Of a stretch of DNA of 64,000 nt, positions 3,840 to 63,773 are shown one piece after another. The position numbers were made by a program, and so were the translations under genes. The first letter of the stretch is position 1; each line of letters opens with the position of its first letter. Origin of the DNA: a virus; IMG/VR virus record IMGVR_UViG_3300028840_004168, positions 1 to 64,000 of that record; one strand, 5' to 3'. The notes below the pieces were generated by a model, which was not told the DNA's origin, did no database searches, and was given only the letters and a program-made list of their open reading frames with translations.

Positions 3840-4625
3840 TTACTCCAGGTTAAGATTTATTTTTATAAAGTCTTTATCTATCGTATTGAGATAAAGAGCG
3901 CCGTTGACAACTAGCTCATACAATACTTCTTTCTGAAATTTTTTGACAGGCGCTTGGCGCTTGCTTTCGCCAGACATGTCATCTTCAAAGTTACCTTTAT
4001 CATCACACATCAATATATATCTTATCAGGTCTATACCTATCACACCGAATGCGAAAGCATCTGCCATGTCACTTACATCAGTGTCATAGTCATAGTTCTT
4101 GTATACCGATTTTATCATGAGATCTTTGGTCTTAGAAGGAGTCACTGCAGGATTCTTCTGAGACAAACCGCCAGCGTATTTCTTAGCCCTTAACGGCGGC
4201 ACACGTATACAGACTATTTCGTTATCCCACATGATAGCCCTTGTCAAGAAGCCATGCTCTCCAGACAGAGCAGCAGAGTTAGGGCTGTTGTATGAGTATC
4301 CTTCCATTACAACAAGGTCTATGCAGATGTCTCTCTCTTTCATCTCTTCCAGGATCTCACTCACCCTGTCCCTGATAATGATCAATCGCTTGTCTGTGTT
4401 GTTGATCTTGCTTGAGTTGAAAGCTATCAGCTCTTCATGGACTACATCTCTCTGTGCATCAAGCACCACTACTCCGTATGAAGTTGTAGAAGGATCTATA
4501 CCAATAGCATAGCAGTCAGCAGGAGAAGTTTCGAGCTTGGCAAAATACTCTCTCATGGAGATGATGTTTTCCTTGAAGGCTGCCTGTTTCTCTGCTTTCC
4601 TCATGTTCTTTTCTTTTTTAGCCAT
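3840..4625 (-). CDS. RuvC-like Holliday junction resolvase
   Basis: 261 residues with an RNase H-like nuclease fold. AIGIDPSTTSYG carries the first Asp (D44), VVMEGYSYN the Glu (E108) and SDMADAFAFG the C-terminal acidic pair (D186, D189), i.e. the D-E-D-D set of RuvC. The family cuts four-way junctions symmetrically; in phages it resolves recombination intermediates before packaging. The N-terminal 36 residues are a Lys-rich extension, and about 50 residues follow the domain. Start and the previous stop overlap as TAATG. Together with RecA, Rad50/Mre11-like and UvsW-like genes it completes a recombination set. Confidence 0.85.
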   Translation of the reverse strand: MAKKEKNMRKAEKQAAFKENIISMREYFAKLETSPADCYAIGIDPSTTSYGVVVLDAQRDVVHEELIAFNSSKINNTDKRLIIIRDRVSEILEEMKERDICIDLVVMEGYSYNSPNSAALSGEHGFLTRAIMWDNEIVCIRVPPLRAKKYAGGLSQKNPAVTPSKTKDLMIKSVYKNYDYDTDVSDMADAFAFGVIGIDLIRYILMCDDKGNFEDDMSGESKRQAPVKKFQKEVLYELVVNGALYLNTIDKDFIKINLNLE

Positions 4626-4966
4626 TAGATAAATTTCCTTATGTTGGCCTTTCGTTTTTTAAACTTCTTTGCGTTGATCAGACACTCATGTATTGCCTTT
4701 CTCAGATCGACAGGTATGTCATGGTTATCGTGCAGTGAGATCAAGTAGAAGAAGCCCCACCTGTTCTTGGCTATCTCACCTATGGGCTGCCCTTTATAAG
4801 CCCCTGAGAGCATGACTATCGTGCCCTCGACGTGCCTGTATTCTATGTTGGCACTCTTCTTAGTCTTTCTGACTCTGCCAGATTCGCCCTTGTCATATCC
4901 TTCTATTTTATCAAGATCAAGTGCCATGATTGAATAGTGCGTGGCAGCACATGTCTGCGCCGTCAC
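4625..4966 (-). CDS. Small basic protein of unknown function (up to 113 aa)
   Basis: The frame opens with GTG at 4966; an internal ATG (residue 15, position 4924: MALDLDKIEGYDKGESGR) is an alternative start. Neither has a clear ribosome binding site, and a 9-bp hairpin at 4939-4984 covers the GTG region. The protein contains VEGTIVMLSGAYKGQPIGEIAK, a KOW/SH3-like beta segment, and a strongly basic C terminus (KKFKKRKANIRKF), suggesting nucleic acid binding. No family recognised. Its stop overlaps the RuvC-like start. Confidence 0.65.
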   Translation of the reverse strand: MTAQTCAATHYSIMALDLDKIEGYDKGESGRVRKTKKSANIEYRHVEGTIVMLSGAYKGQPIGEIAKNRWGFFYLISLHDNHDIPVDLRKAIHECLINAKKFKKRKANIRKFI

Positions 4967-5004
4967 TTCTCTGTACTGCCACGCTTGTTAGCAAAAGAGC
5001 TAAC
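4939..5004 (-). promoter_or_regulatory. Two consecutive hairpins in the leader of the 4625 gene
   Basis: First hairpin on the minus strand: GTTAGC / GCTAAC (4987-5004, loop of 6). Second: GCGTGGCAG / CTGCCACGC (4939-4984, 9 bp, loop 28 nt) covering the putative GTG start. No U-tract follows either, so translation control or RNA processing is more likely than termination. The GTGGCAG/CTGCCAC stem is shared with the hairpin at 5530-5567. Confidence 0.5.
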
Positions 5005-5009
5005 GATGG

Positions 5010-5312
5010 TTAGATTGTTGTTATTTGCCGTTTCTTCTTCTGAGGCATCAAGTGACTGCCCCCTTTGTTAAACACACCTTCAGTTCGTATCTTCGCTACA
5101 ATCCTGTTAACCTGAATGATAAACTCTTCAGGGTATTCATCGAACAGGATTGTTTCGAAAATTGCATTTGCCATGTTTGTGATTGAGTCTTCTAGCGACA
5201 GCCCCAGGAAGAGGCCAGTTGTAACCATACTGTGTATCAGTGATGACAGCGATTGCGTTTCGCCGTTTAAGGAAATTTTATCTTCACCCAAGAATTTAAA
5301 ATGAAATTCCAT
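5010..5312 (-). CDS. Small protein of unknown function (100 aa)
   Basis: The frame can open with GTG at 5327, overlapping the previous stop, or with ATG at 5312 (MEFHFKFLGEDKISLNGE). The ATG is preferred although neither has a strong ribosome binding site. The centre is helical (LSSLIHSMVTTGLFLGLSLEDSITNMANAIFETIL) and the C terminus basic (MPQKKKRQITTI). It belongs to the gene series downstream of the Ycf46-like ATPase. No family recognised. Confidence 0.65.
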   Translation of the reverse strand: MEFHFKFLGEDKISLNGETQSLSSLIHSMVTTGLFLGLSLEDSITNMANAIFETILFDEYPEEFIIQVNRIVAKIRTEGVFNKGGSHLMPQKKKRQITTI

Positions 5313-5319
5313 ATTTTTT

Positions 5320-5511
5320 TTACCCACAGAGCAGATTGATGTTCTTAGCCTCTTCGGTTTTGACAGCGTCAGCCAGGATGTCTTTGGAGTCTTTAGTAAC
5401 CCAACTCAACTCAGTGAACTCTGCACCTATAGTGATGCTGAATTCCTCTGTACCATTGTCCTTGCCTACTTCAGTGTATTCTGCCGGATCTATGATTATT
5501 TCTGATGCCAT
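5320..5511 (-). CDS. Small acidic protein of unknown function (63 aa)
   Basis: ATG at 5509-5511 follows the leader AAGGAGCAAACGATGG that is shared by other genes of this cassette. A longer frame to 5583 exists but lacks a start signal and covers a hairpin, so it is not used. The protein (MASEIIIDPAEYTEVGKD...) is acidic and has alternating beta-type residues ITIGAEFTELSW. Members of the DUF1257/DUF2997/Ycf46 gene set often have such small companions, but I do not recognise this one. Confidence 0.65.
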   Translation of the reverse strand: MASEIIIDPAEYTEVGKDNGTEEFSITIGAEFTELSWVTKDSKDILADAVKTEEAKNINLLCG

Positions 5512-5529
5512 CGTTTGCTCCTTAAAGTG

Positions 5530-5567
5530 TGTGGCAGGGACGGTTGAGAACCGATCCCCCTGCCACA
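5530..5567 (-). promoter_or_regulatory. Long GC-rich hairpin in an intergenic leader
   Basis: Minus-strand TGTGGCAGGG pairs perfectly with CCCTGCCACA (10 bp; 5558-5567 with 5530-5539); inside the loop CGGTT pairs with AACCG around a three-base turn. It occupies the 77-nt gap between the DUF2997-like stop and the start at 5511 and ends 12 nt before the AAGGAG site. There is no U-tract. Likely an mRNA processing or stability element, or a translational switch. Confidence 0.65.
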
Positions 5568-5588
5568 AGTCGGGCTCACACACCCCTC

Positions 5589-5777
5589 TTAATATTTCTG
5601 CCAGACTACATCACTTTCAGCTTCAAATACTTCCTGCTTCATTTCTCTCTCTTCGAGCTGGCCCATCTGGTCTAGGAAGTCCAGAGCTTTGGTGCATTCA
5701 TCACCTGTGAAGCCCTGTGCTTCCACTTCTACTTTTCCGTTAGGACGGAATGTGATTTTAGCTTCTTCTGTTGCCAT
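5589..5777 (-). CDS. DUF2997-like protein
   Basis: 62 residues from ATG at 5777 (AAGGGGG lies 8 nt upstream; an in-frame GTG three codons earlier is too close to it). The sequence KITFRPNGKVEVEAQGFTGDECTKALDFLDQMG matches the pattern of DUF2997: a short beta hairpin that ends in a G-x-x-G-x-x-C turn followed by a helix. In bacteria this small family is commonly found beside DUF1257 proteins and a Ycf46-like ATPase, as it is here. Family assignment is by recall of the pattern; biochemical role is unknown. Confidence 0.65.
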   Translation of the reverse strand: MATEEAKITFRPNGKVEVEAQGFTGDECTKALDFLDQMGQLEEREMKQEVFEAESDVVWQKY

Positions 5778-5790
5778 TGAATACACCCCC

Positions 5791-6252
5791 TTAGTATTTT
5801 TCTCTCTTCACTTCGATCTTGATAGCGCCATCGTCCTGGAAGAGAAATTTGTCGTTATAGGTTTTAGGAACGAGAATACCGTCCTTGTCACGCTGCCAGA
5901 TAGTGAACTGGCGCTTCTCTGCCTGTTCTACTGCACTGTGGGCATTATACAGGACATTGACCTTGCTGCCATTCTCTCCGATCTTACGGCTGATGCGATT
6001 GTTCCAGTCATCATACTCGAACCTGCAATTGCCCTCTGCATCTTCGACCATCGCCGCCTGATAGCCATCGTCAAAACCAGAGATCACGAACGTCCTCTGG
6101 CCTTCTTTGCCAACGTTCATGCGACCATAACCCTTGATAGTCTGCTCTCCCTGGGCTTCTACCATCTGGAGATCAAGTTCAGCAAGGGCACGCTGCAGCA
6201 TTTCTGCGCTAACGTTTTTTAACTCAGTCTTGATAGTTGATTTGTGGCTCAT
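5791..6252 (-). CDS. DUF1257 (Ycf35-like) protein
   Basis: 153 residues. The N terminus MSHKSTIKTELKNVSAEMLQRALAELDL follows the DUF1257/Ycf35 pattern (MSH-x-x-T-I-x-T-x-I-x-D...L..AL..L), and the rest is a predicted beta-rich domain with a repeated basic strand. Ycf35 is a plastid and cyanobacterial protein of unknown function. ATG follows GGAGCAAAC, and promoter P4 lies directly upstream, so it can be transcribed on its own or with the DUF2997-like gene 13 nt downstream. Clustering with the Ycf46-like ATPase supports the assignment. Confidence 0.75.
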   Translation of the reverse strand: MSHKSTIKTELKNVSAEMLQRALAELDLQMVEAQGEQTIKGYGRMNVGKEGQRTFVISGFDDGYQAAMVEDAEGNCRFEYDDWNNRISRKIGENGSKVNVLYNAHSAVEQAEKRQFTIWQRDKDGILVPKTYNDKFLFQDDGAIKIEVKREKY

Positions 6253-6279
6253 GTTTGCTCCTTTGCTTAAATTTGAATC

Positions 6280-6308
6280 ATTATAATCATTGCTTTCCTA
6301 TAAGTCAA
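6280..6308 (-). promoter_or_regulatory. Sigma-70 promoter P4
   Basis: TTGACT (6303-6308), 17-nt spacer, TATAAT (6280-6285) on the minus strand, 28 nt upstream of the DUF1257-like start codon. The -35 lies just outside the end of the upstream gene (stop at 6312). Confidence 0.88.
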
Positions 6309-6311
6309 GCA

Positions 6312-7364
6312 TTATTTGCTTTGTGCCTTTTTGAAGTTAATTTTTCTCCGCTTGTTCCTGATCAACTTGACAGTAGCCTTATCTGTGCTCTCAAGTATGC
6401 TTGAGAGTGCCTCATTTACCGCCTGAGCCGCTTTCTTGTCATCTCTAATACCTTCACCGCCACCAGACTTAGAAATCAATTTCTGAAGGTCTGAGAGCTG
6501 TCTCTCGATGCTTCTATCGCCAGTGAAGTTAAACGCCTTGACCTGATCGATCAGGATAGCCAGCCGCTTTGTATTAGCCTGAGAGATAATGTTATCCTCT
6601 TTAATCTTCCTTGCAGCCAGAGAACAGAATTCATCAATACGGTCTTTAAGGCTATCAACTACTCCACCTACAAATCCGTCTACCCTCTTCTCCATTTCCT
6701 GACAGTATTTCTTCCGAGCAGCTATCAGGGTATCAGCATCTATCTCAGTCATGGCAGCGTTAGCACCCATCTGCGGAGATCTGATTTCAAACAATACATA
6801 GTCGAAGCGATACTGCCCCTCTATATATCCCTTATCAGGCATCGCAGCTCTCAGGCTGTGGTGAAACACACTCTTGAATTGTTCGATAGTGCCTTTGTAT
6901 CCCCTTGCTACGGCGTTAGTATATGCTGCCTGTGTGATATTATCATAGGACTCAAGCAGCTTGTTCAGCCTGTTTACATAGGAATTGATTACGTCCTCAG
7001 CAGCAGACTCGAACTCTTCTCTGATCTCATCCAGCTTCTCAGTGACAGTCTCTATAAAATTATAAGGAATGAAGAAGAGTCCATTAGCCAGGAAAGGCAT
7101 TCCATACTGCTGCAGGATGTTCCTTGCTTTGGCATCAGCGTTCCTGGGTTTGTTCCTCAGCTCTCTGGATATGAGATACTTGGAACCAAGAGACATGACC
7201 TCTTTGTTAATGTCTTCATCATTCAATCCGAGATCGGACGGCTTGATAGCCTTACGCCCTGTCCAAAATGAAATGTTCAGGGCGCAGACTACTCCGTTCT
7301 CATAGATCCTGTCAGTGATCGGCTTGGCTTTGATCTGTCGTTTCTTTTTAGTTTCGTTTACCAT
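6312..7364 (-). CDS. DUF3150-like coiled-coil protein
   Basis: 350 residues from ATG at 7364, which follows AAAGGAGCAAACG; the longer frame to 7421 has no start signal and would include the promoter. The N-terminal block ALNISFWTGRKAIKPSDLGL..EVMSLGSKYLISRELRNKPRNADAKARNILQQYGMPFLANGLFFIP fits the DUF3150 pattern (W-x-G-R/K, S/D-LGL, LGSK, A-R-x-x-L..G-x-P-F). A long amphipathic central region and a basic C terminus (KLIRNKRRKINFKK) follow. DUF3150 genes often sit beside AAA+ ATPases. Role unknown; a substrate or adaptor of the ATPase is plausible. Confidence 0.65.
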   Translation of the reverse strand: MVNETKKKRQIKAKPITDRIYENGVVCALNISFWTGRKAIKPSDLGLNDEDINKEVMSLGSKYLISRELRNKPRNADAKARNILQQYGMPFLANGLFFIPYNFIETVTEKLDEIREEFESAAEDVINSYVNRLNKLLESYDNITQAAYTNAVARGYKGTIEQFKSVFHHSLRAAMPDKGYIEGQYRFDYVLFEIRSPQMGANAAMTEIDADTLIAARKKYCQEMEKRVDGFVGGVVDSLKDRIDEFCSLAARKIKEDNIISQANTKRLAILIDQVKAFNFTGDRSIERQLSDLQKLISKSGGGEGIRDDKKAAQAVNEALSSILESTDKATVKLIRNKRRKINFKKAQSK

Positions 7365-7392
7365 CGTTTGCTCCTTTAAAGCATTTTCTTCA

Positions 7393-7421
7393 AGTATACT
7401 TGGCTTTTTAAAAACTGTCAA
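7393..7421 (-). promoter_or_regulatory. Sigma-70 promoter P5
   Basis: TTGACA (7416-7421), 17-nt spacer, TATACT (7393-7398) on the minus strand, 28 nt before the ATG of the DUF3150-like gene. The palindrome at 7431-7444 lies 9 nt upstream of the -35. Confidence 0.88.
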
Positions 7422-7430
7422 GTATTTTTT

Positions 7431-7444
7431 TCTGAAATTTCAGA
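7431..7444. repeat. Dispersed palindrome TCTGAAATTTCAGA (perfect)
   Basis: A perfect 14-bp palindrome placed between the stop codon of the Ycf46-like gene (7445) and the -35 box of promoter P5. One of the best copies in the window and one of three that are intergenic. Confidence 0.85.
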
Positions 7445-9049
7445 TCAAACATTTATGTTCCTTTTCTTTTTCTGGCCTTGCGACTTCTTCTCCATCGGAG
7501 TAGAAGCTGGCATTGCCCTTCCAGACAGCTTAGCCCTCATGGTATCTATCTGTGTCTTCATAGTCTTTGTCAGAGGGTTAATCTCTCTCAGCTCTGCTTC
7601 CAGATCCTTGTCAGCCAGCTTGCGTTTTCCATCGCTGAAAGACCTGAACAGCGCTCCATTGACTATTTCTTCGATCTCGCTGCCAGTCAGATCCTGAGCC
7701 ATGTTAGACAGCTTCTCAAGGTTATAGTTTTTAGGCTTGCGACCCCTTTTCTTCAGGTGGATCTCAAAGATCTCTTTACGCTCTTTGTGATTTGGAAGAT
7801 CGACATATACCAGATTGTCGAAACGCCCTCTGCGCAGGAACTCAGGCGGTAAGCTGTCGATGTTATTGCAGGTAGCAACTACAAAAACAAAAGACTTCTT
7901 TTCCTGCAGCCACGTGAGCAGCTTTCCGAAGACCCTTGCAGTAACACCGCTATCGGTATTGCCAGAGCTCTGCACCCCTGCCAGACCTTTTTCGATCTCA
8001 TCAACGAACAGGATACAGGGAGCCATAGCTTCGGCAGTAGCAATGATCTTGTTGACATTGGCCTCAGACTGGCCTACCAGAGAACCGAACACCTTGCCGA
8101 TGTCAAAGTATAACAAGGGCAGACCCCAGTTTACAGCGATGGCCTTACCCACCAGAGACTTACCACAGCCAGGGATACCCAGGAGCATGATGCCCTTCGG
8201 TATCGGGAGCCCATAATCTCTGGCCTCTTTGGTGAATGCGCTTTTGCGCAGCTCAAGCCAGCCTTTAAGTCTGTCAAGGCCGCCTACTTCATTCATGTTG
8301 GTTTCAGGATGGAAGACATCTATCAGCGTGCTCTTCTTCAGCTGCTTGCTCTTTTCTTCCTGAATAGTTTCAGGATCAAGATCGCCCTGCTTCTTGACGA
8401 TGCCTAAAGCATATGCGCCAGATATCTCCTGGGAAGTCATACCCTGAGCTGATCTTACCAATGCAGCTATCCTGTCTTCTTCGATCTCTTCCATATCAAG
8501 ATCGGCATCTTTAAGAGTATCTTCCAGACAGATCTTAACTTCTTCTTCTGTAGGAAGTGCAAACTCCATCCAGGCCACATCTTTTTCGATCTCGATAGGC
8601 AGCTCGATCTGTGCGCCAGTGATAATCAGGTTCTTGCTGACCTGTCTGAATTCAGCGCCCAGGTCTTTGATATACTGTTTTACCATAGGATGCTTCAAGT
8701 ATTCATGGAAGTTGAACATCACTATAATGCTCTTGTCTTCAAAGCTTCTGGTATAGGACAGTGCCTGAATAGCATCCAGTATAGGCCTGTCATTACCACC
8801 ATTTTCTCCAGTAGCTACCGCTACATCAGCATGGTCTTTAAACCCTTCAGTGCATGTCCACTTGTAGTATTTGACCTCTCTATCAGAGGCGTATACCTTA
8901 GCAGCAACGAGCTTGATAGCATCTTCCAGTCTATGATCTTCATATGACTGAATGGTTATTACGCCCATACTGGCATTGAAATGATCCCAAAGGCTTTGCT
9001 GGAATTCGGTAAGCTCAATTTTTTCAACATCAATTTTTTCTTCGTCCAT
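7445..9049 (-). CDS. Ycf46-like AAA+ ATPase
   Basis: 534 residues. The N-terminal half (about 1-240) is the Ycf46-type domain, with MVKQYIKDLGAEFRQVSKNLIITG and LPIEIEKDVAWMEFALPTEEE matching the family's 'elevated stress/ELP-like' region. The AAA+ core follows: NEVGGLDRLKGWL, Walker A GIPGCGKS (291-298), pore-type FGSLVGQSE, Walker B ILFVDEIEK (346-354), sensor 1 VATCNN and arginine fingers in FLRRGRFDN (405-413). Ycf46 is a plastid/cyanobacterial ATPase linked to photosynthesis regulation in cyanobacteria, but non-photosynthetic homologues are common. ATG follows GGAGCCAACG, with its own promoter P6. With the DUF3150, DUF1257 and DUF2997-like genes downstream it forms a conserved neighbourhood. 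Confidence 0.88.
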   Translation of the reverse strand: MDEEKIDVEKIELTEFQQSLWDHFNASMGVITIQSYEDHRLEDAIKLVAAKVYASDREVKYYKWTCTEGFKDHADVAVATGENGGNDRPILDAIQALSYTRSFEDKSIIVMFNFHEYLKHPMVKQYIKDLGAEFRQVSKNLIITGAQIELPIEIEKDVAWMEFALPTEEEVKICLEDTLKDADLDMEEIEEDRIAALVRSAQGMTSQEISGAYALGIVKKQGDLDPETIQEEKSKQLKKSTLIDVFHPETNMNEVGGLDRLKGWLELRKSAFTKEARDYGLPIPKGIMLLGIPGCGKSLVGKAIAVNWGLPLLYFDIGKVFGSLVGQSEANVNKIIATAEAMAPCILFVDEIEKGLAGVQSSGNTDSGVTARVFGKLLTWLQEKKSFVFVVATCNNIDSLPPEFLRRGRFDNLVYVDLPNHKERKEIFEIHLKKRGRKPKNYNLEKLSNMAQDLTGSEIEEIVNGALFRSFSDGKRKLADKDLEAELREINPLTKTMKTQIDTMRAKLSGRAMPASTPMEKKSQGQKKKRNINV

Positions 9050-9088
9050 CGTTGGCTCCTTAAAAAATATTTAAAACATCTAAATGCA

Positions 9089-9116
9089 ATTATACTTATC
9101 TCTTCACGTTTGTCAA
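9089..9116 (-). promoter_or_regulatory. Sigma-70 promoter P6
   Basis: TTGACA (9111-9116), 16-nt spacer, TATAAT (9089-9094) on the minus strand, 39 nt upstream of the Ycf46-like start. A ribosome site AAGGAGCC lies in the short leader. Confidence 0.88.
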
Positions 9117-11079: not shown

Positions 11080-11314
11080 CCTGTTTCTCCTTCAATACTT
11101 TTTCTTTGTCTATCCATCCCCACTTGTCTCTGTTGATCGTAAAAGCAAGCGTCATATCTTTACAGATTTTAGACTTTTCACAATACCTGCAAACTATCTG
11201 GTAAGGATGGTAGTGCATCCCGAATTTGTCGCATAAAGAATCTACTGGAAAATAATCTGCAAACAAATCTTTCCAGTCTTCAAGCCTCATTCTCTTTGCA
11301 GCTTCGGTTATCAT
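11069..11314 (-). CDS. Small Cys/His protein (81 aa)
   Basis: ATG overlaps the stop of the Rad50-like gene (ATGA) and has GGAGAAAAG upstream. CDKFGMHYHPYQIVCRYCEKSKICKDM contains four cysteines and two histidines and probably binds a metal. The end, DREKWGWIDKEKVLKEKQDGK-like, is charged. No family recognised; translational coupling links it to the Rad50-like gene. Confidence 0.7.
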   Translation of the reverse strand: MITEAAKRMRLEDWKDLFADYFPVDSLCDKFGMHYHPYQIVCRYCEKSKICKDMTLAFTINRDKWGWIDKEKVLKEKQDGK

Positions 11315-13218
11315 TTTCTTTTCTCCATCCTGCTGATGCCGCCTTCCTTAACAACAAACAGCACGTTGTCAAAATTCTTCTTGAGTTCTACCCTATGGCT
11401 GACAAGCAATACCTTGCTCTTCAGCCTTTGGAAGTAACCCATGAAAGCTTTAATGCCAGCAGCGTCCAGAGATTCAAAAGCGCTTTCGTCTTCGATGCTG
11501 AAATCTATGTTCCTGGATTGCATGACTTGATGCTCGATAGCGCTGTCCATTGCAAACTCTACAGCCGCAAGCTCTCTGCCGCTAAGCACGTTCAGCGGCT
11601 TAGGTTGATTGGCCTTATCGAATATGCTGAATTCGATTTCGCCAGATCTTTTGTCTGTTACGCTTATTTCAACTCTTATCTCATCGTCTATCTCTTCAAG
11701 CGTTTCGTTGACGGCGATGTTGATCTCAGGTATCACTTCTTCCAGCAGCATCTTCTTGACATTGTCCCTGCCAAACCGCATAGACATGAAGTCATAATAC
11801 CTGATGTCGTTTCTCAGAGATTTAACCCTGTAGGTTGCTTCCTTGATCTGTTGTTTTATAGATTCAATTTGTTCTGCCGTATTGGTTAATGATTTTTCGT
11901 AAGCCTCTATTTTCTCTCTGGCAGCGCTGATCGTAGATGTGCGTGAAGCTATATCTTCCTTTACACCGCCAGTGGCTTCTCTTGCCAGTTCTATTTTGCT
12001 CTTGATAGACTTCTGTTTCTCAGAGAGCTTTTTCATCGTAGCATCTCTTTTATCTTTCACTTCCTGTATCTTTGCCGTCAATGCTTTATGGTCAGCATCG
12101 GTATTTGCAAGATTGGCTGTATCTGATTCAACCTTTTTCCTTGCTTCTTTTAAAATTTTGAAAAGGTCTTTTCTGATAACGTCTTTATGTTTTTCTCCTA
12201 CATCCTGTTTGCATGTAGGGCAGTTTTCTATTTTTGTTATGACTTGTATCTGGTGCTCTATCCTGTTTATTTCTCTTTTGCTGTCCTCTATTTTGCTGTT
12301 AATCATAGTCTTGGAAGCATCAAGCTTGCCTTCTTCTTTGTTCATGCTTTGCAATTTCTCTGAGCACTCTCTTTCAATGTCAGCTTTTTTTATTGCAATT
12401 TCATTATTTTCTTTTACAAGTTTAGACTCATCGCCATGCTTCTTCTTGCTTTTAGCCAGTTTGATTTTCAGATTTTTAATTTCTGCATCTTGCCGTTTGA
12501 TCTTCTCTTTCTCACCAGCTATAACATCGTCATAGTCAGCACTTTCTTTTTCGAAGTGTTCTTGGCTGCGCCCCAGGTCTTCTAGCTTGCTTTCCAGCCT
12601 GCTCCTTTCAGCAGCCATGCTATTGAGCTCTCCGTCTATGTATTTCTTTGCATCGTCTATCCATCCCCAATTCATGATAAACAGAAGGAAGTCCTGGCGC
12701 TCGGCATTACCCATGTGCAGGAACCGCTTGTTAGCTTTCTTTGTAAACCTCTCGTAGTGAGACTGATGATGGAAGACAGTCTTAAGCATCTGGTCTTTAG
12801 TGAATCCTAGAAGATCAACTATCTCTTTGTTTACATCAGAAGGGCGCATCTGTTTTGTAATACAGCTTCGCTTGGCTCCATCGTATTTGTAGATATGAAC
12901 TTCGTTCTTGAATTCAGAATGCTTCCTATGGCGCACGATAGCATACTTGTTGCCGTCTGCGTGCATAAACTGAAGCTCTCCCCTGCATCCTTTTTCAAAA
13001 ACTCCCAGGATAGAATCTCCTGTAATGTTGTTAGGAGTTTCGCCAAAAGGTATCCACAGAAAACAAGACAGGAAGTTACTCTTGCCTGCTTTATTGGCTA
13101 TGCAGTCATCTTCGTCTCTGTTGTCACCAGTTATGAAATAAACTCCGTTGTCTGTTAGATCTACTTCTGCATGTTCAAAAGTTATATACTTATCCAGTAT
13201 TACTTTAGTTGGGTTCAT
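11311..13218 (-). CDS. Rad50/SbcC-like ATPase (T4 gp46-type)
   Basis: 635 residues. The ABC-type head is split by coiled coils: an N-terminal Walker A variant in FITGDNRDEDDCIANKAGKSNF (about 28-49), long coiled coil, a zinc hook CPTC (333-336), a second coiled coil, the signature LSGRELAAVE (545-554), Walker B FSIEDESAFESLD and a D-loop. The protein pairs with an Mre11/SbcD nuclease to process DNA ends; the likely partner is at 15608. The Walker A loop is longer than usual (10-residue insertion between GDN and AGKS), as in T4 gp46-type enzymes. TCATGA overlap with the phosphoesterase upstream. Confidence 0.88.
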   Translation of the reverse strand: MNPTKVILDKYITFEHAEVDLTDNGVYFITGDNRDEDDCIANKAGKSNFLSCFLWIPFGETPNNITGDSILGVFEKGCRGELQFMHADGNKYAIVRHRKHSEFKNEVHIYKYDGAKRSCITKQMRPSDVNKEIVDLLGFTKDQMLKTVFHHQSHYERFTKKANKRFLHMGNAERQDFLLFIMNWGWIDDAKKYIDGELNSMAAERSRLESKLEDLGRSQEHFEKESADYDDVIAGEKEKIKRQDAEIKNLKIKLAKSKKKHGDESKLVKENNEIAIKKADIERECSEKLQSMNKEEGKLDASKTMINSKIEDSKREINRIEHQIQVITKIENCPTCKQDVGEKHKDVIRKDLFKILKEARKKVESDTANLANTDADHKALTAKIQEVKDKRDATMKKLSEKQKSIKSKIELAREATGGVKEDIASRTSTISAAREKIEAYEKSLTNTAEQIESIKQQIKEATYRVKSLRNDIRYYDFMSMRFGRDNVKKMLLEEVIPEINIAVNETLEEIDDEIRVEISVTDKRSGEIEFSIFDKANQPKPLNVLSGRELAAVEFAMDSAIEHQVMQSRNIDFSIEDESAFESLDAAGIKAFMGYFQRLKSKVLLVSHRVELKKNFDNVLFVVKEGGISRMEKRK

Positions 13219-14003
13219 GATGCCTCAAGGTTGTCTAGGTTTATAAGTTTTATTTCTCCATCTATTATTTCAGCACAGGTAGCATGCTCATAGAAATCTC
13301 CGATACAGATAACCTCTTTGTTTCCAAGCTGCCATCTTCCCTGCCTGTGCATATGCCCCATTATTATAGTGTCTTCTCCAGGAAGCACAGATGACATTTT
13401 CTCTACAAGGTGCTCTCCATAAGCTTCTGCTATACGGCTGTTATGTGCGGTATAAGCTGATATAGAGATAGCTTCTGGATTCCCCTTGAGTTTTCTCACT
13501 ATCTTGCCAAAGAAATTTTCAGTCCTGAGAAACGGAGCCAGGACTTGTTTGTAGTCGTGCCAGTGATTATCGAATGCGTCACCATGCATAAATCTGGTAA
13601 GTCTGTCTCCTACCATCGCAGTAAACCCAATAGTAGGATAGATAGTGATCTGAGCTCCGTCAAGTTCATCATAAGAAAGCTCATGATCTCCATAAAAGCC
13701 ATAGAATCCAAACATAGTCTGAGGCAGATACTGCATCGCTTTCAGCTCATGATTGCCGATGCACCAGATGATCTTGTCAAAGCAGCATGTCGCTTTAACA
13801 AAGAACCAGTGCGCTTCTTTCATTATGTGCCAGATCTGCTCTCTCACAATATCTAATCCATCTCCCAGGATGATAAGAGTATCTATCCTGTCAGGCTTTG
13901 TGGTTACATAGTTAGTAAAAAATTTTTCAAATATAATCCTTCCACTCTTATGGAATTCAGAACCAAAATGTATATCAGAAACTAATAATGCATTGTTAAC
14001 CAT
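13215..14003 (-). CDS. Calcineurin-like metallophosphoesterase (LpxH-like)
   Basis: 262 residues with the metal-binding set of the family: SDIHFG (9-14), LGDGLD (47-52), GNHEL, HGDAFDNHWHD and GHMHR. The HGD(A)xxD block resembles LpxH/UDP-diacylglucosamine pyrophosphatase-like enzymes more than Mre11. It overlaps the Rad50-like gene by 4 nt, the place Mre11/gp47 usually holds, yet a better Mre11 match exists at 15608. It may hydrolyse a nucleotide or phosphodiester; DNA nuclease activity is possible. Confidence 0.8.
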   Translation of the reverse strand: MVNNALLVSDIHFGSEFHKSGRIIFEKFFTNYVTTKPDRIDTLIILGDGLDIVREQIWHIMKEAHWFFVKATCCFDKIIWCIGNHELKAMQYLPQTMFGFYGFYGDHELSYDELDGAQITIYPTIGFTAMVGDRLTRFMHGDAFDNHWHDYKQVLAPFLRTENFFGKIVRKLKGNPEAISISAYTAHNSRIAEAYGEHLVEKMSSVLPGEDTIIMGHMHRQGRWQLGNKEVICIGDFYEHATCAEIIDGEIKLINLDNLEAS

Positions 14004-14915: not shown

Positions 14916-15333
14916 CGTTTGCTCCTTTCTCTGGTTTTGGTTTTTCCTGCTTCTCAGCAGTTTCTTCAAGCTGCTTTACTGCAGGTTGTTTTGGTATCTG
15001 AATAAGCATGTTAAGCTCAAGGTCATAAGCCATCATATACTCATCAGATGTTTTAATAAAAAAGCGAACGGCCCCTTGTCTAGTTGTAATAAAAAAGGAC
15101 GATATGCCCCCAATGTTTAATGGTTTGATGTATTGTATGTCTGCATAGCTTTTTATTAGCTGCACAAGCTGCAGATCTTCAGGAGACACATGCCTGTCTG
15201 ACTCTATGACAATAGGCTCAAAGTTTTTTATTTTGCTATACTGATAGCCTGTTAATGCACCCATCATCAATATGATTGCCAGTAAAAAACTAATTACATA
15301 CCCACTAAGATTACGTTCGCTTTTTGTTGTCAT
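14887..15333 (-). CDS. Single-TM envelope-type protein (148 aa)
   Basis: ATG at 15333 is preferred over the ATG six nt upstream because AAGGG is then 8 nt away. After a short basic N terminus comes one TM helix, GYVISFLLAIILMMGALTGY (about 10-29), then a soluble beta-rich domain (VIESDRHVSPEDLQLVQLIKSY) and a Lys/Glu/Pro-rich C terminus. This looks like a signal-anchor protein facing the periplasm. Close packing with the holin-like gene suggests a lysis or envelope role, unproven. Confidence 0.7.
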   Translation of the reverse strand: MTTKSERNLSGYVISFLLAIILMMGALTGYQYSKIKNFEPIVIESDRHVSPEDLQLVQLIKSYADIQYIKPLNIGGISSFFITTRQGAVRFFIKTSDEYMMAYDLELNMLIQIPKQPAVKQLEETAEKQEKPKPEKGANDGKEIPKKQ

Positions 15334-15335
15334 TA

Positions 15336-15611
15336 TCATTTCCCTTCTTTTTCTTTCATCTCTGCTTCGCCTTCTTTAAGCGCTTCTTTGACAGTCTTGC
15401 CCCATTTAATAGGCTTACCCTGTCCATCACGCAATCCGATGGTTGCAGCAGCGATCATTATTATTTCCACCAGCGTTCCTACATCTATCTGTCCACCTGT
15501 GTAGGCACTGACGGCTGCGACCACTCCAAAAAGAGCAGCCAATATTGATTTTGATTTCCAAGCAGATTTTATTTCCTGCTTTGTAGCTAAATGATATTCT
15601 TTTTCAGTCAT
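15336..15611 (-). CDS. Holin-like small membrane protein (91 aa)
   Basis: Two hydrophobic segments, SILAALFGVVAAVSAYTG (about 22-39) and GTLVEIIMIAAATIGLRDG (about 45-63), joined by a short turn, with charged termini; the last 20 residues are Lys/Glu-rich. The AATIGLRDG turn is common in small phage membrane proteins of the holin type. Overlaps both neighbours by about 4 nt. No endolysin is visible nearby, so this is a structural guess. Confidence 0.6.
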   Translation of the reverse strand: MTEKEYHLATKQEIKSAWKSKSILAALFGVVAAVSAYTGGQIDVGTLVEIIMIAAATIGLRDGQGKPIKWGKTVKEALKEGEAEMKEKEGK

Positions 15612-16750
15612 GATATCTCTCCTAATATCTTTCTTCCAATATCTCTCAATTTAGTTTTCTTCAGTGTTGTATCATCTGTGTTGATGATATGTTCCATTAG
15701 TTCTTTCCTGTTGTCCGAATTTTTTGATAGGAGAGGTTTTTTATTATTGGTTTCTTCTTTGAGCTTGTATGTCGCTTTCGTGTTAACAAAATCTTTTATT
15801 TTTTCTGAAATTTCAGATTTTATTTTTAAAGTAACGTTCGTAACTTTCAGCCTTGCTGTATGCCGAGTATATTTTTTTAAAATGCCCCTGATGTCATCCA
15901 GGTTCTGATTAAAGTCACGAGTATGGTCATAATTAAAATCGATGTCTTTAAATTTTGTAAAGCTGTTAAGGTCTAAGGACTCCCAGGTATCAGCCAGATT
16001 GCCTTCTTCGCTAGTCCTTACCCTTACCGCACGCTTGATCTCATCAAGGTCGTTGAAGTCTTTCATATATGGATTCCCAGGTATAATAATATTCCCAAGA
16101 CCTGCCACATTATCGTAATAGTGATGACAGTGACCAATAGCGATAAGATCATATGTGCCAGAAAGAATACGTAAATCTTTTTGAGAAAGACCGCTATCAA
16201 AGATTTCCCTTTTATCATGCCTGATTCCTTTCACTGGCGCATGCATGATGCACACAGTCTTGAGATCGAACAGCTTAGTGCCGTCTGTATCTTCAAGTTC
16301 TTTGTCTGGTTCAATAGCTTCTGTCTCTGAACCATATGGATAAAAGAAATATGCTGTGTCTGTAGATCTGTCTACTACTACTGTGGGATTTAAGATAGGA
16401 ACGAAGTAATCTGGCCTGAAGACTTCATACTGGCTGAGAATATTATAGTCCTGAGAATACATTTCATGGTTGCCAAGCATAGCGAAGATGCGAAGAGCTG
16501 TGCCGTGTTTATCTCTCAATCTTTTCATCAGCCTTGCAAACCTGCTGGCAGTCTCTGAGTCCAAAAAGTTGTTTTCAAATACATCGCCAGCTACTATGAT
16601 AGCACCCCAATCATCTTCCTCTGTGGAATACTCTGCTATCTCTTCTATAGCCGCTTCAGCATTGTCTATGCCATTATAAGGGAGGCTGGCATCCAAGTGC
16701 CAGTCAGCGGTTATTATTGGATCTCCTAAGTCCCAACGCATTTTAATCAT
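15608..16750 (-). CDS. Mre11/SbcD-like nuclease (T4 gp47-type)
   Basis: 380 residues from ATG at 16750 (AAGGTGG upstream; a TTG one codon earlier is not needed). Metallophosphoesterase motifs: ITADWHLDAS (D-x-H), VAGDVFENN (GD), MLGNHEMYS (GNHE), IMHAPVK and IGHCHHYYDN (GHxH). VIIPGNPYMKDFND is typical of the Mre11 capping transition. It is the probable partner of the Rad50-like ATPase at 11311, though the two are separated by five genes. Promoter P8 lies upstream. The best intragenic palindrome copy (15804-15817) lies in its C-terminal third. Confidence 0.85.
   Translation of the reverse strand: MIKMRWDLGDPIITADWHLDASLPYNGIDNAEAAIEEIAEYSTEEDDWGAIIVAGDVFENNFLDSETASRFARLMKRLRDKHGTALRIFAMLGNHEMYSQDYNILSQYEVFRPDYFVPILNPTVVVDRSTDTAYFFYPYGSETEAIEPDKELEDTDGTKLFDLKTVCIMHAPVKGIRHDKREIFDSGLSQKDLRILSGTYDLIAIGHCHHYYDNVAGLGNIIIPGNPYMKDFNDLDEIKRAVRVRTSEEGNLADTWESLDLNSFTKFKDIDFNYDHTRDFNQNLDDIRGILKKYTRHTARLKVTNVTLKIKSEISEKIKDFVNTKATYKLKEETNNKKPLLSKNSDNRKELMEHIINTDDTTLKKTKLRDIGRKILGEIS
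15804..15817. repeat. Dispersed palindrome TCTGAAATTTCAGA (perfect), intragenic
   Basis: Perfect 14-bp palindrome inside the Mre11-like gene, encoding Ser-Glu-Ile-Ser-Glu. AT-rich flanks on both sides (TTTT before, TTTTAT after) match those of the other copies. Confidence 0.85.
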
Positions 16751-16773
16751 CAAGCCACCTTTCTACAAATCAA

Positions 16774-32992: not shown

Positions 32993-35236
32993 CTATTCCT
33001 TATCTGGATTAGTCACATCTACCAAATCACTTGCTGCGTCTATAACATGCATGGACTCATATAGCTGGAAGCATGGTGAAGGCAACCCCATGATGCATGG
33101 CTCATGTCCATGAGTAAAACAGTTGTGAACAGTCCATGTCTTAGCTATATACGATTCATCGCCTTGCACTTCCAGGTTATATACAGTGCCTGTGTGCTTC
33201 TTCACAGAACAGCTTTCCACCTTTAGGAACTTCTTATCTCCAATCGATCTGACATCTATCTGTTTGTTTACCGAAGTCAGCTTGTAGTTAAAGTTAGGCT
33301 CTCCTGTGATATCAGCAAATTCATTAATAGCCCTCATCATTATCGCAATACTGTAGATATACCTTTTGTTTCGTGATCTGACAGTAAAGGGCTCTTCATC
33401 GTTATTGATTTTGAATCCTGCCAGAAAGCTGGCTATGTTGCGTTCATCCAGCCCAAAGAACCATCTCGGTATGATCTTATCCCTGTATGGCTGTTTAGCT
33501 CCGAACAAGCGCTGTAAGAATCTGGCAAGGATATCGCATTCGATCAGGATTATAATTTTGCCGTCTGCATTATATTTAAATTTAATAACACTATCATCAA
33601 GGTCAAATAAATATTTTGTAATTGCAGAAATTTCATCTTTGGCTTGATCGTTTTTGGCAGCTATGTCTACTATAAATCTTGACTTGGTTCCTTTCTCTTC
33701 AGCCATAATTCCTATCCTGCCGCTACTTACAAAGATACCGAAGAACTTCAACAGCTCAGGAGTAAGGCTGAGCTTGTTATCTATCCTTATTCCTTTTGAC
33801 TTATCAAAGACAGTGTGTATGGTTTTATCTTTTTCATCATAGATTATATCTTCACTGTCAAGTGAGCGAGTATCTTTATCTGTAAGAGTTTTGGAGATGA
33901 GCAGGTTAACAAGGTTTACATAGACATTATAATCGAAATAATTAATGTAGACATCTTTGTTATCGTTTATCATGCTCTTTATCGTCTTTATAGGCAGATA
34001 TCCGATTATAGGTTCCATGCCTGCATGCGGATGGTCATACGTGCACAGCACTGGATGATCTTCTGTAGCCTTTAGAGGTTCGCTAATTCCTTTTATATTG
34101 AGAACCACTATGTCTTCATCTTTAACATCACGTCTCATTACATCAGTCACAGGCATGAACCGTCCCTGGTCTGTAAGCACTTTGTCTGTGCTTATATCTA
34201 TATGAGATATAGGCTTTACTATATTCTTCTCTACCATTATTTCCTGGTTTCCCAGGAAGCATGGAGCGCATGGAGGCTTTACATCTAATGCCCTAACGTT
34301 AGTATAATACCTCATTCTCAGATCAGATGGGAATGGGCCGTATATAGCCACAGTAGGTTTCTTTAACGCACCAGCCAGATGCCCTATAGATGAATCAGGC
34401 ACTACAGCAAGGTCGCACAGGTCTATAAGTGCTATCACCTGTTGCCAAGTAGGACATATATCAGCAGAGAAGTAGTAGTCATCAGGGTTAACTCTGAAGA
34501 ACCTCAGATCGTTCTTTATAGATACAGCCTCTCTTGCAGACGATGCCATAACTACATTCCATCCTGTGTCTTTAAAATAGCTGGCAACCTCTACTTGCTT
34601 CTTCTGATCTGGAGTCCTGATTGGAGAAGATGCCCTCATGTGTATCACAAGAGTCTTCTTGCCGTTAGATAAGAATACATTATCTTCTATAAGCTTTTCC
34701 TGCAGTTCTTTATCTACATGCACATAAGGAAGCTTTTCTTCTGCAGGAATAGGCTCATGATCTATGAAAAGCCTTTCCAGGAACAGATCATAGGCATTCA
34801 TCTGTGAAGCTTTTTCGCTTCCTTCAATTATGCCTTCAAAAATAATATGGTAGTCAGCTGCTTCCCATTCCTTAAGCAGCAAAGGTGCAGATCCTATTAC
34901 ATCTATATATGGATTGCCCTCTATAACTCCATGATATCTTTCAGCACAATACACATGGACTATTGCTTCTGGATATTTCTTTTTCAAATGTTTGATTGCT
35001 ACGGAAAGGAAGAGTATGTCACCAGCGCCGCCGTTTCTCAAGGCATACAGCGTCTTGCCATTCAGGTCTTCACCTTCATATTTTTTATAGTAGCTGTAAA
35101 AGTCAGCCACCATATACTTTTCAGGGTTGCGTCCTACCAGATCCTGCCATTGCCTTGCCGTCATGTCATTGACGACATAAAACTCGTCAGGGACTATCTG
35201 CTCCGAGACTTTGTCCTTCAACATTATCAGTCTCAT
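32993..35236 (-). CDS. GT9 glycosyltransferase interrupted by an intein (extein 367 aa)
   Basis: 747 residues. Extein N-part (1-325): GT9 fold with NGGAGDILFLSVAIKHLKKKYP (acceptor side), VIHMRASSPIR, and VVPDSSIGHLAGALKKPTVAIYGPF (donor site). It is cut inside the Cys-rich motif; after splicing the junction reads PPCAP-CFTHGHEPCIMG, matching the metal-like C-x-x-C...C-x-x-x loop of many GT9 heptosyltransferases. C-extein: residues 706-747. The ATG at 35236 sits close to the preceding gene. The enzyme likely glycosylates LPS-like or virion glycan. No other replication gene in the window carries an intein. Confidence 0.87.
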   Translation of the reverse strand: MRLIMLKDKVSEQIVPDEFYVVNDMTARQWQDLVGRNPEKYMVADFYSYYKKYEGEDLNGKTLYALRNGGAGDILFLSVAIKHLKKKYPEAIVHVYCAERYHGVIEGNPYIDVIGSAPLLLKEWEAADYHIIFEGIIEGSEKASQMNAYDLFLERLFIDHEPIPAEEKLPYVHVDKELQEKLIEDNVFLSNGKKTLVIHMRASSPIRTPDQKKQVEVASYFKDTGWNVVMASSAREAVSIKNDLRFFRVNPDDYYFSADICPTWQQVIALIDLCDLAVVPDSSIGHLAGALKKPTVAIYGPFPSDLRMRYYTNVRALDVKPPCAPCFLGNQEIMVEKNIVKPISHIDISTDKVLTDQGRFMPVTDVMRRDVKDEDIVVLNIKGISEPLKATEDHPVLCTYDHPHAGMEPIIGYLPIKTIKSMINDNKDVYINYFDYNVYVNLVNLLISKTLTDKDTRSLDSEDIIYDEKDKTIHTVFDKSKGIRIDNKLSLTPELLKFFGIFVSSGRIGIMAEEKGTKSRFIVDIAAKNDQAKDEISAITKYLFDLDDSVIKFKYNADGKIIILIECDILARFLQRLFGAKQPYRDKIIPRWFFGLDERNIASFLAGFKINNDEEPFTVRSRNKRYIYSIAIMMRAINEFADITGEPNFNYKLTSVNKQIDVRSIGDKKFLKVESCSVKKHTGTVYNLEVQGDESYIAKTWTVHNCFTHGHEPCIMGLPSPCFQLYESMHVIDAASDLVDVTNPDKE
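33122..34261 (-). other. Intein (380 aa) with degenerate LAGLIDADG domain
   Basis: Residues 326-705 of the 32993 protein. Block A starts with Cys326; block B TEDHPVL (391-397) has the conserved His; block F VYNLEVQGDESYIAKTWTVH leads to penultimate His704, terminal Asn705 and Cys706 as +1 nucleophile. All splicing residues are present. Residues 495-508 (LLKFFGIFVSSGRI) and 603-612 (SFLAGFKINN) match LAGLIDADG helices, but the catalytic acidic positions read Ser and Asn, so the homing endonuclease is probably inactive. Confidence 0.9.
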
Positions 35237-63110: not shown

Positions 63111-63773
63111 TTATGAGGAACTTTTCTTACTGCTCTTGCCTGAACTTTTCTTGCCTGAACTTTTCTTGCCTGAACTTTTCTTACCACTGGACTTTTTACT
63201 GGAAGTCCTTCTCGTAACAGCCCTTTTCTTTTTAGAAGCAGGCGCAGGTTCTGGCTCAGGTTCTGGCTCAGGTTCTGGCTCAGGTTCTGGTTCTGGCTCA
63301 GGTTCTGGTTCAGGTTCTGGTTCTGGCTCAGGTTCAGGTTCAGGTTCAGATTCAGGTTCAGGTTCAAGCTCAGGTTCTGGTTCTGGCTTTGGAGCTGCTT
63401 TTGGTTTTGGATCAGGCCTTACTATCGGAGCTGGCATAGGAACAGTATCTGGATTTAAAAGACCAGAAGGAGTATTATCTGCTGCATCGCTGGCAGATGT
63501 TTCAGCTGTAAGCGCATCCAGCCTTGCTTTTGCATCTTCCATAGTGCCAGATACAATCTCAAATACAGGAGTGGTCTTTTTGGTTTTAGGATTAGTGTAT
63601 AACTCATCGTCATTCACTACATCGGTCAAAATCCTTATTGCAGCAGCCAAAGGCATGTCAGGATCATCCATGTCAAACTTATGGCCTGCATTGAAATTAG
63701 CTTGCCGCCTAGTCAAATCAAACTGCTTAATATAATGCCCTGGCACGTTAGTCTTAATAACGAGATCTCCCAT
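63111..63773 (-). CDS. Head-associated protein with Glu-Pro and Lys-Ser repeats (220 aa)
   Basis: The N-terminal 110 residues ([37 protein letters not shown]) resemble a small virion-capsid-associated protein. Then come about 25 Glu-Pro dipeptides (residues about 130-178), and finally [15 protein letters not shown] repeats. Such acidic/basic tails suggest binding to capsid or DNA. It sits between capsid and connector genes, a place where decoration or head-completion proteins are encoded. Reading the reverse strand here gives only a Gly-Ser shadow. Confidence 0.7.
63148..63190 (-). repeat. Lys-Ser-Ser-Gly coding tandem repeats
   Basis: Three 15-bp repeats of CTTGCCTGAACTTTT type code for K-S-S-G-K units at the end of the Glu-Pro protein. 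Confidence 0.75.
63238..63385 (-). repeat. Glu-Pro coding tandem repeats
   Basis: Repeats of GGTTCTGGCTCA (six-base GGYTCW units) fill about 140 bp and code for the E-P run. Prone to length change by slippage. Confidence 0.85.

Follow-up and report, generated by a model that had tools for sequence, protein, structure and literature searches.

A phage cassette encoding a Ycf46-type AAA+ ATPase and a C-terminal peptide common to the ATPase and its DUF3150 partner

Results

Genes and signals of the cassette

We analyzed a window of 64,000 nucleotides, corresponding to positions 1 to 64,000 of the IMG/VR virus record IMGVR_UViG_3300028840_004168. An earlier note had described there a cassette coding for a Ycf46-like ATPase and for DUF3150-, DUF1257 (Ycf35)- and DUF2997-like proteins. 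All four genes lie on the minus strand, and their coordinates, which are unchanged, are listed below with those of the associated features in the order of transcription.

9089..9116, minus strand: sigma-70 promoter of the ATPase gene, TTGACA-16-TATAAT, 12/12 consensus
7445..9049, minus strand: Ycf46-type AAA+ ATPase, 534 aa; Pfam AAA E 2.5e-28, full-length PHROG 8638 E 9e-130
7448..7462, minus strand: C-terminal peptide RNINV of the ATPase (in KKKRNINV-COOH)
7393..7421, minus strand: sigma-70 promoter of the DUF3150 gene, TTGACA-17-TATACT, 11/12
6312..7364, minus strand: DUF3150 protein, 350 aa; PF11348 E 1.1e-20, 74.5 bits for a gathering cut-off of 24.9
6333..6347, minus strand: C-terminal peptide RKINF of the DUF3150 protein (in KRRKINFKKAQSK), matching the tail of the ATPase encoded in this locus
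6280..6308, minus strand: sigma-70 promoter of the DUF1257-like gene, TTGACT-17-TATAAT, 11/12
5791..6252, minus strand: divergent DUF1257 (Ycf35-like) protein, 153 aa; profile E 2.4e-14, model pLDDT 92.3
5589..5777, minus strand: DUF2997 protein, 62 aa; PF11211 E 7e-9, 35.9 bits for a gathering cut-off of 24.1
5531..5566, minus strand: moderately stable leader hairpin 5' of the 63-aa ORF; MFE -32.8 kcal/mol over a 96-nt stretch, z -2.34
5320..5511, minus strand: 63-aa ORF with leader GGAGCAAACG; no family found
5010..5312 (or 5010-5327 from a GTG start, 105 aa), minus strand: ORF of about 100 aa with the tag-like end KKKRQITTI
4625..4927, minus strand: ORF of about 100 aa, family unknown, ending in KKRKANIRKFI
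3840-4625: RuvC-like resolvase, directly after the preceding ORF; PHROG 159 E 6e-23

The strong sigma-70 promoters previously proposed for the ATPase and two of its partners are indeed near-perfect. The similar GGAGC(A/C)AACG leaders ascribed to the same genes are present before those of the ATPase and the DUF3150 protein, whereas the DUF1257-like gene has GGAGCAAACATG instead. The motif GGAGCMAACG is also found 5' of the 63-aa ORF and, at 14925 of the window, of one further gene. Homologues of the three small downstream genes are absent from related loci, and the 105-aa product has a tail of the same kind as that of the ATPase.

The C-terminal half of the ATPase has intact motifs: a Walker A (GIPGCGKS), a Walker B (ILFVDEIE), and an Arg-finger region (RRGRFD). 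The ATPase is of the classical AAA class (CDC48-like) and not of the MoxR/chelatase type. Its score against the curated CDC48/p97 model is 127 bits, to be compared with the 803 required, and it lacks the two active AAA modules of that family. The N-terminal half has no AAA match of its own; matched by profile to the C-terminal half, it gives a weak hit from sensor-1 to the lid (E 6e-4, probability 28%), a faint suggestion of a degenerate AAA domain. Relatives over the full length, N-terminal half included, occur in phages, plasmids, and cyanobacteria; as expected of a Ycf46-type ATPase, the phage protein has a single active AAA module, the C-terminal one. When the tree is rooted at its midpoint, the ATPase groups with those of phages and plasmids having DUF3150, apart from the cyanobacterial ones. 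An alignment was needed as query to detect relatives in viral contigs, where single-sequence queries with the ATPase or the phage polymerase gave no matches.

The PF11348 match of the DUF3150 protein spans positions 4-162 of the 257 in the profile. Its structural model (pLDDT 76.7, below 50 at residues 336-350) predicts an alpha/beta N-terminal part with long helices, and disorder in the C-terminal tail. The model matches viral DUF3150 proteins (E 1e-10 to 4e-7) and no PDB fold at E<=1e-3. The DUF1257-like protein gives no hit to PF06868 in Pfam at the gathering cut-off. A profile made from 16 other DUF1257 proteins, with the phage's own protein left out, finds it at E 2.4e-14 as the sole match among 767 phage ORFs. 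It starts with MSH and sits between the protein in the third position and DUF2997, as in phages RHph_I4 and HJ05. A PDB sequence search with DUF1257 gave no matches. The model of the DUF1257-like protein matches no PDB fold at E<=1e-3, which leaves an SspB-like adaptor role of DUF1257 unsupported. The four families named in the earlier note were thus borne out, with DUF3150 and DUF2997 recognized by Pfam and DUF1257, whose membership is remote, by the profile excluding the phage protein.

Recurrence of the gene set

The gene set is also present in phages of Rhizobium, Aeromonas, and Pseudomonas, in several plasmids, and in about 12 viral contigs. Unrelated phages and plasmids encode either the complete set or, where DUF3150 is replaced, the three remaining genes. 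Neither of the outcomes that would have refuted the earlier note, partners lacking profile similarity to their families and a neighborhood that does not recur, was thus observed, and its inference of an AAA+ machine served by dedicated adaptors or substrates is supported. The ATPase, DUF1257, and DUF2997 look like the core of the system, and the ATPase is the only part found in every locus. The third position is a variable slot, occupied by DUF3150, by the DUF3150-like F33, or by the unrelated P210. A protein of F33 size in Dylan (Corndog cluster) matches the fold of the DUF3150 model (probability 0.98, E 4.7e-3). Our literature search found no paper on the four-gene set or on the shared tail described below.

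A C-terminal tail shared by the ATPase and the slot protein

Sequence comparison establishes that the ATPase and the slot protein have in common an R-x-Phi-x-Phi end, preceded by a flexible linker. The tail occurs in 47 of the 83 ATPases, versus 4.1% of 1503 other ORFs, and in 8 of 21 ATPases once the set is reduced to less than 40% identity (p 1.5e-6). Slot proteins also carry it frequently (9/17 DUF3150, 3/4 P210, and 22/27 F33, the last count taking in the final 45 aa). Among proteins of the same operons, it was found in one of 32 DUF1257, none of 30 DUF2997, and none of 18 F20. The Arg of the DUF3150 tail (residue 340) is invariant in 15 DUF3150 proteins, despite only 14-24% identity in their bodies; the only other invariant residue is Met1.

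The tail covaries between the ATPase and the slot protein of one locus. ATPase and DUF3150 tails from one locus resemble each other more closely than tails from different loci (16 pairs; none of 5000 permutations as good), and so do those of ATPase and F33 (p 0.03, by permutation); shared ancestry is included in both comparisons. In a rumen bacterium, arrays of tail-bearing genes (ERNLDL, ERNVDL, and others) lie directly upstream of an ATPase ending in GGRTLDF. The earlier note had not remarked on the shared tail. Some F33 proteins have QLxLF-like ends, and we considered the tail as a beta-clamp binder; this was set aside because the conserved residue is Arg and not Gln.

In this phage, a basic tail of similar kind terminates about ten other protein families, two of which are Cys-rich paralogue arrays located outside the window. 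Almost none of the tail-bearing proteins are named by Pfam and PHROGs, one of this phage being an HNH endonuclease, and a search by tail found no relatives of the first array. The phage has 29 tagged genes among 180, more than in 300 shuffles of the tails (mean 7.9, maximum 17), although basic composition explains part of the count. When the generic motif was counted in 12 other viral contigs, no clear enrichment across the proteome emerged, and we therefore do not claim large client sets as a general trait. Outside this phage, few additional genes encode the tail, and their numbers mostly do not exceed those of cross-genome controls.

Discussion

Proposed mechanism and alternatives

Of all clues to the way in which the components of the cassette fit together, the shared tail is the strongest. 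We tentatively favor the reading that the cassette is a phage version of a Ycf46-type AAA+ remodeling machine, with the tail as a docking peptide for partners and clients. The ATPase would form a p97-like ring in which the first tier is inactive and the second active. The tail would dock into a receptor shared within the complex; the most economical candidate is the ATPase itself, since no other part occurs in every locus. DUF3150 would be a dedicated partner or client docking by its tail, and the ATPase's own tail might compete with client docking or prime it. Using ATP, the machine would pull apart, assemble, or activate the tail-bearing proteins, early in infection as the host-type promoters suggest. 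It is these steps of docking and client handling that we infer. A more specific reading, which we regard as possible and hold more loosely, is that mobile elements carry an AAA+ system directed by a tag, in which the motor, the slot partner, and, in this phage, many other proteins share R-x-Phi-x-Phi as an address peptide through which clients are gathered and remodeled. By analogy, this would be a phage counterpart of ssrA-SspB-ClpX or MIM-Vps4 with lineage-specific pairs of tag and receptor.

The tail might have another local use, such as binding to nucleic acids, ribosomes, or membranes, its likeness between ATPase and neighbors being coincidental and no docking being needed. The tails of this phage are strongly basic, shuffling alone accounts for some of the tagged genes, and several ATPases lack the strict motif. 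However, the tail of the F33 clade (R-x-L-D-L-COOH) is acidic and yet common to ATPase and partner, and the DUF1257, DUF2997, and F20 proteins encoded in these operons largely lack it. We regard this explanation as unlikely.

We give slightly less credit to a chelatase-like machine for cofactor or metal loading, in which the ATPase with DUF1257 and DUF2997 inserts or repairs Fe-S or other metal centers in clients. The tail-bearing arrays of this phage carry 7-8 conserved Cys, and a Fer4_12/radical-SAM gene adjoins the ATPase in related bacterial loci. Synechocystis has a conserved cluster of duf2997, ycf35, and the ferredoxin fed7 (PMC4284462), and freshwater red algal plastids lost ycf35, ycf46, ycf34, and pbsA together (PMC5940233). 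Yet this cassette has no Fe-S gene, nor do many core-bearing phage loci, and the class of the ATPase is that of CDC48 rather than of chelatases.

A role in defense or anti-defense, like that of the AAA ATPase IetA or of the sgiAT toxin-antitoxin ATPase, seems improbable. The antitoxin of SGI1 is an AAA protein of the SpoVK/Ycf46/Vps4 group (PMC10954446), the AAA domain matches the PADLOC IetA (E 1e-28), and the host-type promoters suggest early expression. Nevertheless, the ATPase misses the curated IetA cut-off by far (87.8 vs 510 bits), the partners match nothing in PADLOC, and no protease match was found in the cassette or among the flanking genes that were scanned, whereas IetAS has an adjacent subtilase.

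T4 internal proteins enter the capsid via an N-terminal signal. That the tail-bearing proteins are similarly loaded into the capsid during virion morphogenesis or packaging is very improbable: the arrays of small divergent paralogues with a conserved end do resemble internal-protein arrays in layout, but they occupy a part of the plus strand that has host-type promoters and is separate from the structural genes, and the virion-signal reading is further weakened because the Corndog relative of the ATPase was found in infected cells and not in CsCl-purified particles (PMC4351075).

The cassette bears on Ycf46 and Ycf35, to which no molecular role has been assigned so far despite their wide distribution among cyanobacteria and the plastids of red algae. 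The compact phage version and its shared peptide allow a direct and cheap test of how clients are found, by peptide binding and mutation of the Arg. The tail also provides, in this phage, a list of candidate clients among nameless proteins.

Comparison with known systems

The MoxR/CbbQ systems of IncC and other plasmids resemble the cassette in that DUF3150 partners an AAA+ ATPase. They differ by the MoxR class of the ATPase, the presence of a vWA protein, and the R-x-Phi-x-Phi tail, found in 0 of 6 of their DUF3150 proteins. Corndog-cluster mycobacteriophages (Catdawg gp97/gp95) encode an ATPase of the same family, and the tail of its F33 partner is R-x-I-D-F; there, DUF1257 and DUF2997 were not detected and the ATPase tail is acidic (RVLDL).

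The Ycf46 (Slr0374) homologues of cyanobacteria are 35-37% identical to the phage ATPase over the full length. In five cyanobacterial loci, Ycf46 has a conserved C-terminal peptide EY[QK]R[LM]EF (EW in one) and adjoins DUF1257 (Ycf35). This tail differs from that of the phage in being R-Phi-E-Phi, and it is missing from Prochlorococcus Ycf46. No other protein carries it in four cyanobacterial genomes, and an exact search of five found it in reading frame only in Ycf46 itself. The phage ATPase, in contrast, falls in the phage and plasmid clade with DUF3150 partners in the midpoint-rooted tree.

The plasmid cluster of Candidatus Manganitrophus (CP114559) has AAA, DUF1257, DUF2997, and DUF3150 all adjacent, although in another gene order and on a plasmid instead of a phage. 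Rhizobium phage RHph_I4 (gp084-087) and Aeromonas phage HJ05 (gp65-68) have the same order of ATPase, slot protein, DUF1257, and DUF2997; their slot is occupied by P210 and not by DUF3150, with the similar tails TRRAVKL and RNRKLKL.

A minus-strand cassette of four genes

The window covers the opening 64 kb of a phage record of 129,910 bases. On its minus strand, genes for an ATPase, a DUF3150 protein, a DUF1257-like protein and a DUF2997 protein follow each other in the order of transcription that the earlier note had claimed. They precede three small ORFs without known family and a RuvC-like gene.

Genes of the cassette
9049-7445, minus: AAA+ ATPase, 534 aa (Pfam, above cut-off)
7364-6312, minus: DUF3150 protein, 350 aa (Pfam, above cut-off)
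6252-5791, minus: DUF1257-like protein, 153 aa (profile search; no Pfam name)
5777-5589, minus: DUF2997 protein, 62 aa (Pfam, above cut-off)

Three of the proposed family assignments were thus confirmed directly. The DUF1257 assignment was not recovered by the Pfam scan, which gives the 153-aa protein no such name, but it stands by a profile of 16 DUF1257 proteins, all from other genomes, to which this protein is the sole match among the phage's 767 ORFs (E = 2.4e-14). The Pfam DUF1257 model exceeds its own cut-off in 8 of 23 viral records.

The strong sigma-70 promoters attributed to the ATPase and two partners were also found: near-consensus sequences precede the ATPase, DUF3150 and DUF1257-like genes (12/12, 11/12 and 11/12 matches, respectively). 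Hence, the host polymerase seems able to transcribe these three genes unaided by phage factors. Comparable promoters occur elsewhere in the phage, chiefly at 84-125 kb. A moderately stable hairpin (5531-5566) lies in the leader of a 63-aa ORF, immediately 5' of the ribosome-binding site. Counting the RuvC-like gene downstream, recombination-type genes lie on both flanks of the cassette, with an SbcC/Rad50-like ORF (11311-14003) and metallophosphoesterase-like ORFs (15608-16753) upstream.

Recurrence of the gene set

The neighbourhood recurs in phages, a plasmid and viral loci. All four families are present at 14 surveyed ATPase loci (12 excluding the window and its duplicate), further loci hold two or three of them, and all four are adjacent on a Candidatus Manganitrophus plasmid. 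Rhizobium phage RHph_I4 and Aeromonas phage HJ05 show the order ATPase, P210 (an unrelated protein of ~210 aa), DUF1257, DUF2997, and the same families are present in Pseudomonas phage SM1 and Rhodobacter phage RcKickapoo. Another locus (L054) keeps DUF1257 and DUF2997 and has the ~270-aa F33 family in place of DUF3150; the fold of an F33-sized protein of phage Dylan matches that of the predicted DUF3150 structure (probability 0.98, E = 4.7e-3). Across a tree of 116 ATPases, DUF1257 and DUF2997 are dispersed across both halves and DUF3150 is mostly confined to the phage and plasmid part surrounding the window. Given this replacement, the fold match and these distributions, we interpret the system as a core made up of ATPase, DUF1257 and DUF2997, with a variable slot that DUF3150, F33 or P210 fills. 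That mobile elements carry the set is no new finding, since RHph_I4 and some plasmids already have it annotated. Neither the four genes as a unit nor the shared tail described below turned up in the literature searched, and the papers found under the DUF names concern neither phages nor function.

A C-terminal tail shared by the ATPase and the slot protein

Full-length relatives of the ATPase occur in many phages, plasmids, viral contigs and bacteria, including cyanobacteria. Following a variable linker, they end in R-x-Phi-x-Phi, e.g., RALDL, RTLDI, RKVVL, RVLDL (Catdawg), RKVLV (satellite phage Javan368) and RNINV (window). This tail is found on 47 of 83 ATPases, versus 4.1% of 1503 other ORFs from the same loci, and on 8 of 21 after reduction to <40% identity (p = 1.5e-6). 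It lies at most one residue from the C-terminus in 55/56 cases; the second position after the arginine is L, V or I without exception, and the next residue is D or E in 40 of 48 distinct tails. A Treponema succinifaciens plasmid encodes, within a contractile-injection/baseplate gene cluster, an ATPase 41% identical to that of the window and ending in VRKLEM (L088, 10115-11539).

The slot proteins carry the tail as well. The bodies of the DUF3150 proteins are just 14-24% identical to that of the window, and the tail arginine and Met1 are the only invariant residues (n = 15); in the predicted DUF3150 structure, the tail is disordered and follows a long helix. The motif ends 3 of 4 P210 and lies within the last 45 residues of 22 of 27 F33, against a background of 22% for that longer stretch. 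Other families from the same operons mostly lack it (DUF1257 1/32, DUF2997 0/30, family F20 0/18). Likeness to the ATPase tail is greater within than between loci for DUF3150 (16 loci; 0/5000 permutations) and F33 (p = 0.03), both comparisons still including shared ancestry.

Other tail-bearing proteins

A basic form of the tail ends 29 of the 180 phage genes, where 3.1 are expected from internal windows and 7.9 from shuffled tails (maximum 17 in 300 shuffles). At the family level, 17 of 156 carry it, against a shuffled mean of 6.9 and maximum of 14. Since five of these 17 look marginal, the credible bearers are the ATPase, DUF3150 and roughly ten more families. One bearer is an HNH endonuclease, and two arrays lie outside the window.

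Tail-bearing arrays
113.7-123.8 kb: 13 paralogues with 7-8 conserved Cys; tails KKKRSMFNFGGKK and alike
89.9-95.0 kb: five paralogues with CxxC; tail KKKRKFNQFKG

In the five-member array, 5 of 12 invariant positions fall in the tail. Both arrays (L098 and L099 in the whole record, G000) consist of divergent Cys-containing paralogues with a conserved basic-aromatic C-terminal tag and have neither Pfam nor convincing PHROG matches. Within the window, a structural-region ORF (63111-63773) has a long E-P dipeptide repeat and a repeated SSGKK tail, and an ORF with a glycosyltransferase-like start (32993-35236) seems to be interrupted by an intein-like insert, with TVHNC preceding the return of the host sequence.

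The pattern is smaller in other genomes. Two additional proteins of a Vibrio plasmid end in KNKRKVILD, and neighbours on Paenibacillus and Arthrobacter plasmids end in FKRVIRL and SRRLDL. A rumen bacterium (L173) has six tandem ORFs ending in ERNLDL or similar directly before an ATPase ending in GGRTLDF; one scanned body has a helix-hairpin-helix domain, the remaining ORFs are its homologues, and a Fer4_12/radical-SAM gene sits among them. Most other viral contigs have zero to two extra bearers, not exceeding cross-genome controls, and in those cyanobacterial genomes where the Ycf46 tail is conserved, no second protein shows it. The same ATPase and a Fer4_12/radical-SAM-like protein are found together in L173 (3558-10387), L170 and L179, along with tail-bearing proteins that contain a helix-hairpin-helix region and are in tandem in the first two. 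These bacterial loci are possibly a separate, undescribed system.

A putative p97-like motor

The C-terminal half of the ATPase has intact Walker A (GIPGCGKS), Walker B (ILFVDEIE) and arginine (RRGRFD) regions, and its related solved structures are p97/CDC48 modules. Inspection of the N-terminal half revealed no nucleotide-binding motifs; its match to the C-terminal half from sensor-1 to lid (E = 6e-4, probability 28%) may reflect a first AAA tier that has degenerated.

The most economical reading of these sequences is a p97-like motor, with DUF1257 and DUF2997 as core subunits, on which the partner and clients would dock via the tail. The likeliest receptor would be the ATPase itself, as the sole component common to every locus showing the tail. 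The strongest competing reading of function is cofactor loading. Pointing that way are the ferredoxin (PMC4284462) and radical-SAM neighbours of cellular relatives, the fact that red algal plastids have lost ycf34, ycf35, ycf46 and pbsA together (PMC5940233), and the phage's Cys-rich tail-bearing arrays. In Synechocystis, Ycf46 reportedly influences CO2 use and the activity of carbonic anhydrase (Jiang et al. 2015, as cited in PMC7496141). A relative of the ATPase was detected in cells infected with Corndog, whereas purified particles yielded none, and gp97 and gp95 of Catdawg were detected in lysate (PMC4351075); these findings are consistent with an intracellular role, as opposed to one in the virion.

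The tail is absent (0/6) from the DUF3150 proteins that pair with MoxR ATPases and vWA proteins, whose ends are aromatic or hydrophobic instead. These DUF3150 proteins (L094, L248-L252) have a long linker followed by GIMLF, SFFF, DFWF, TYDF or TGFY, which may serve that other AAA+ system as a docking peptide.
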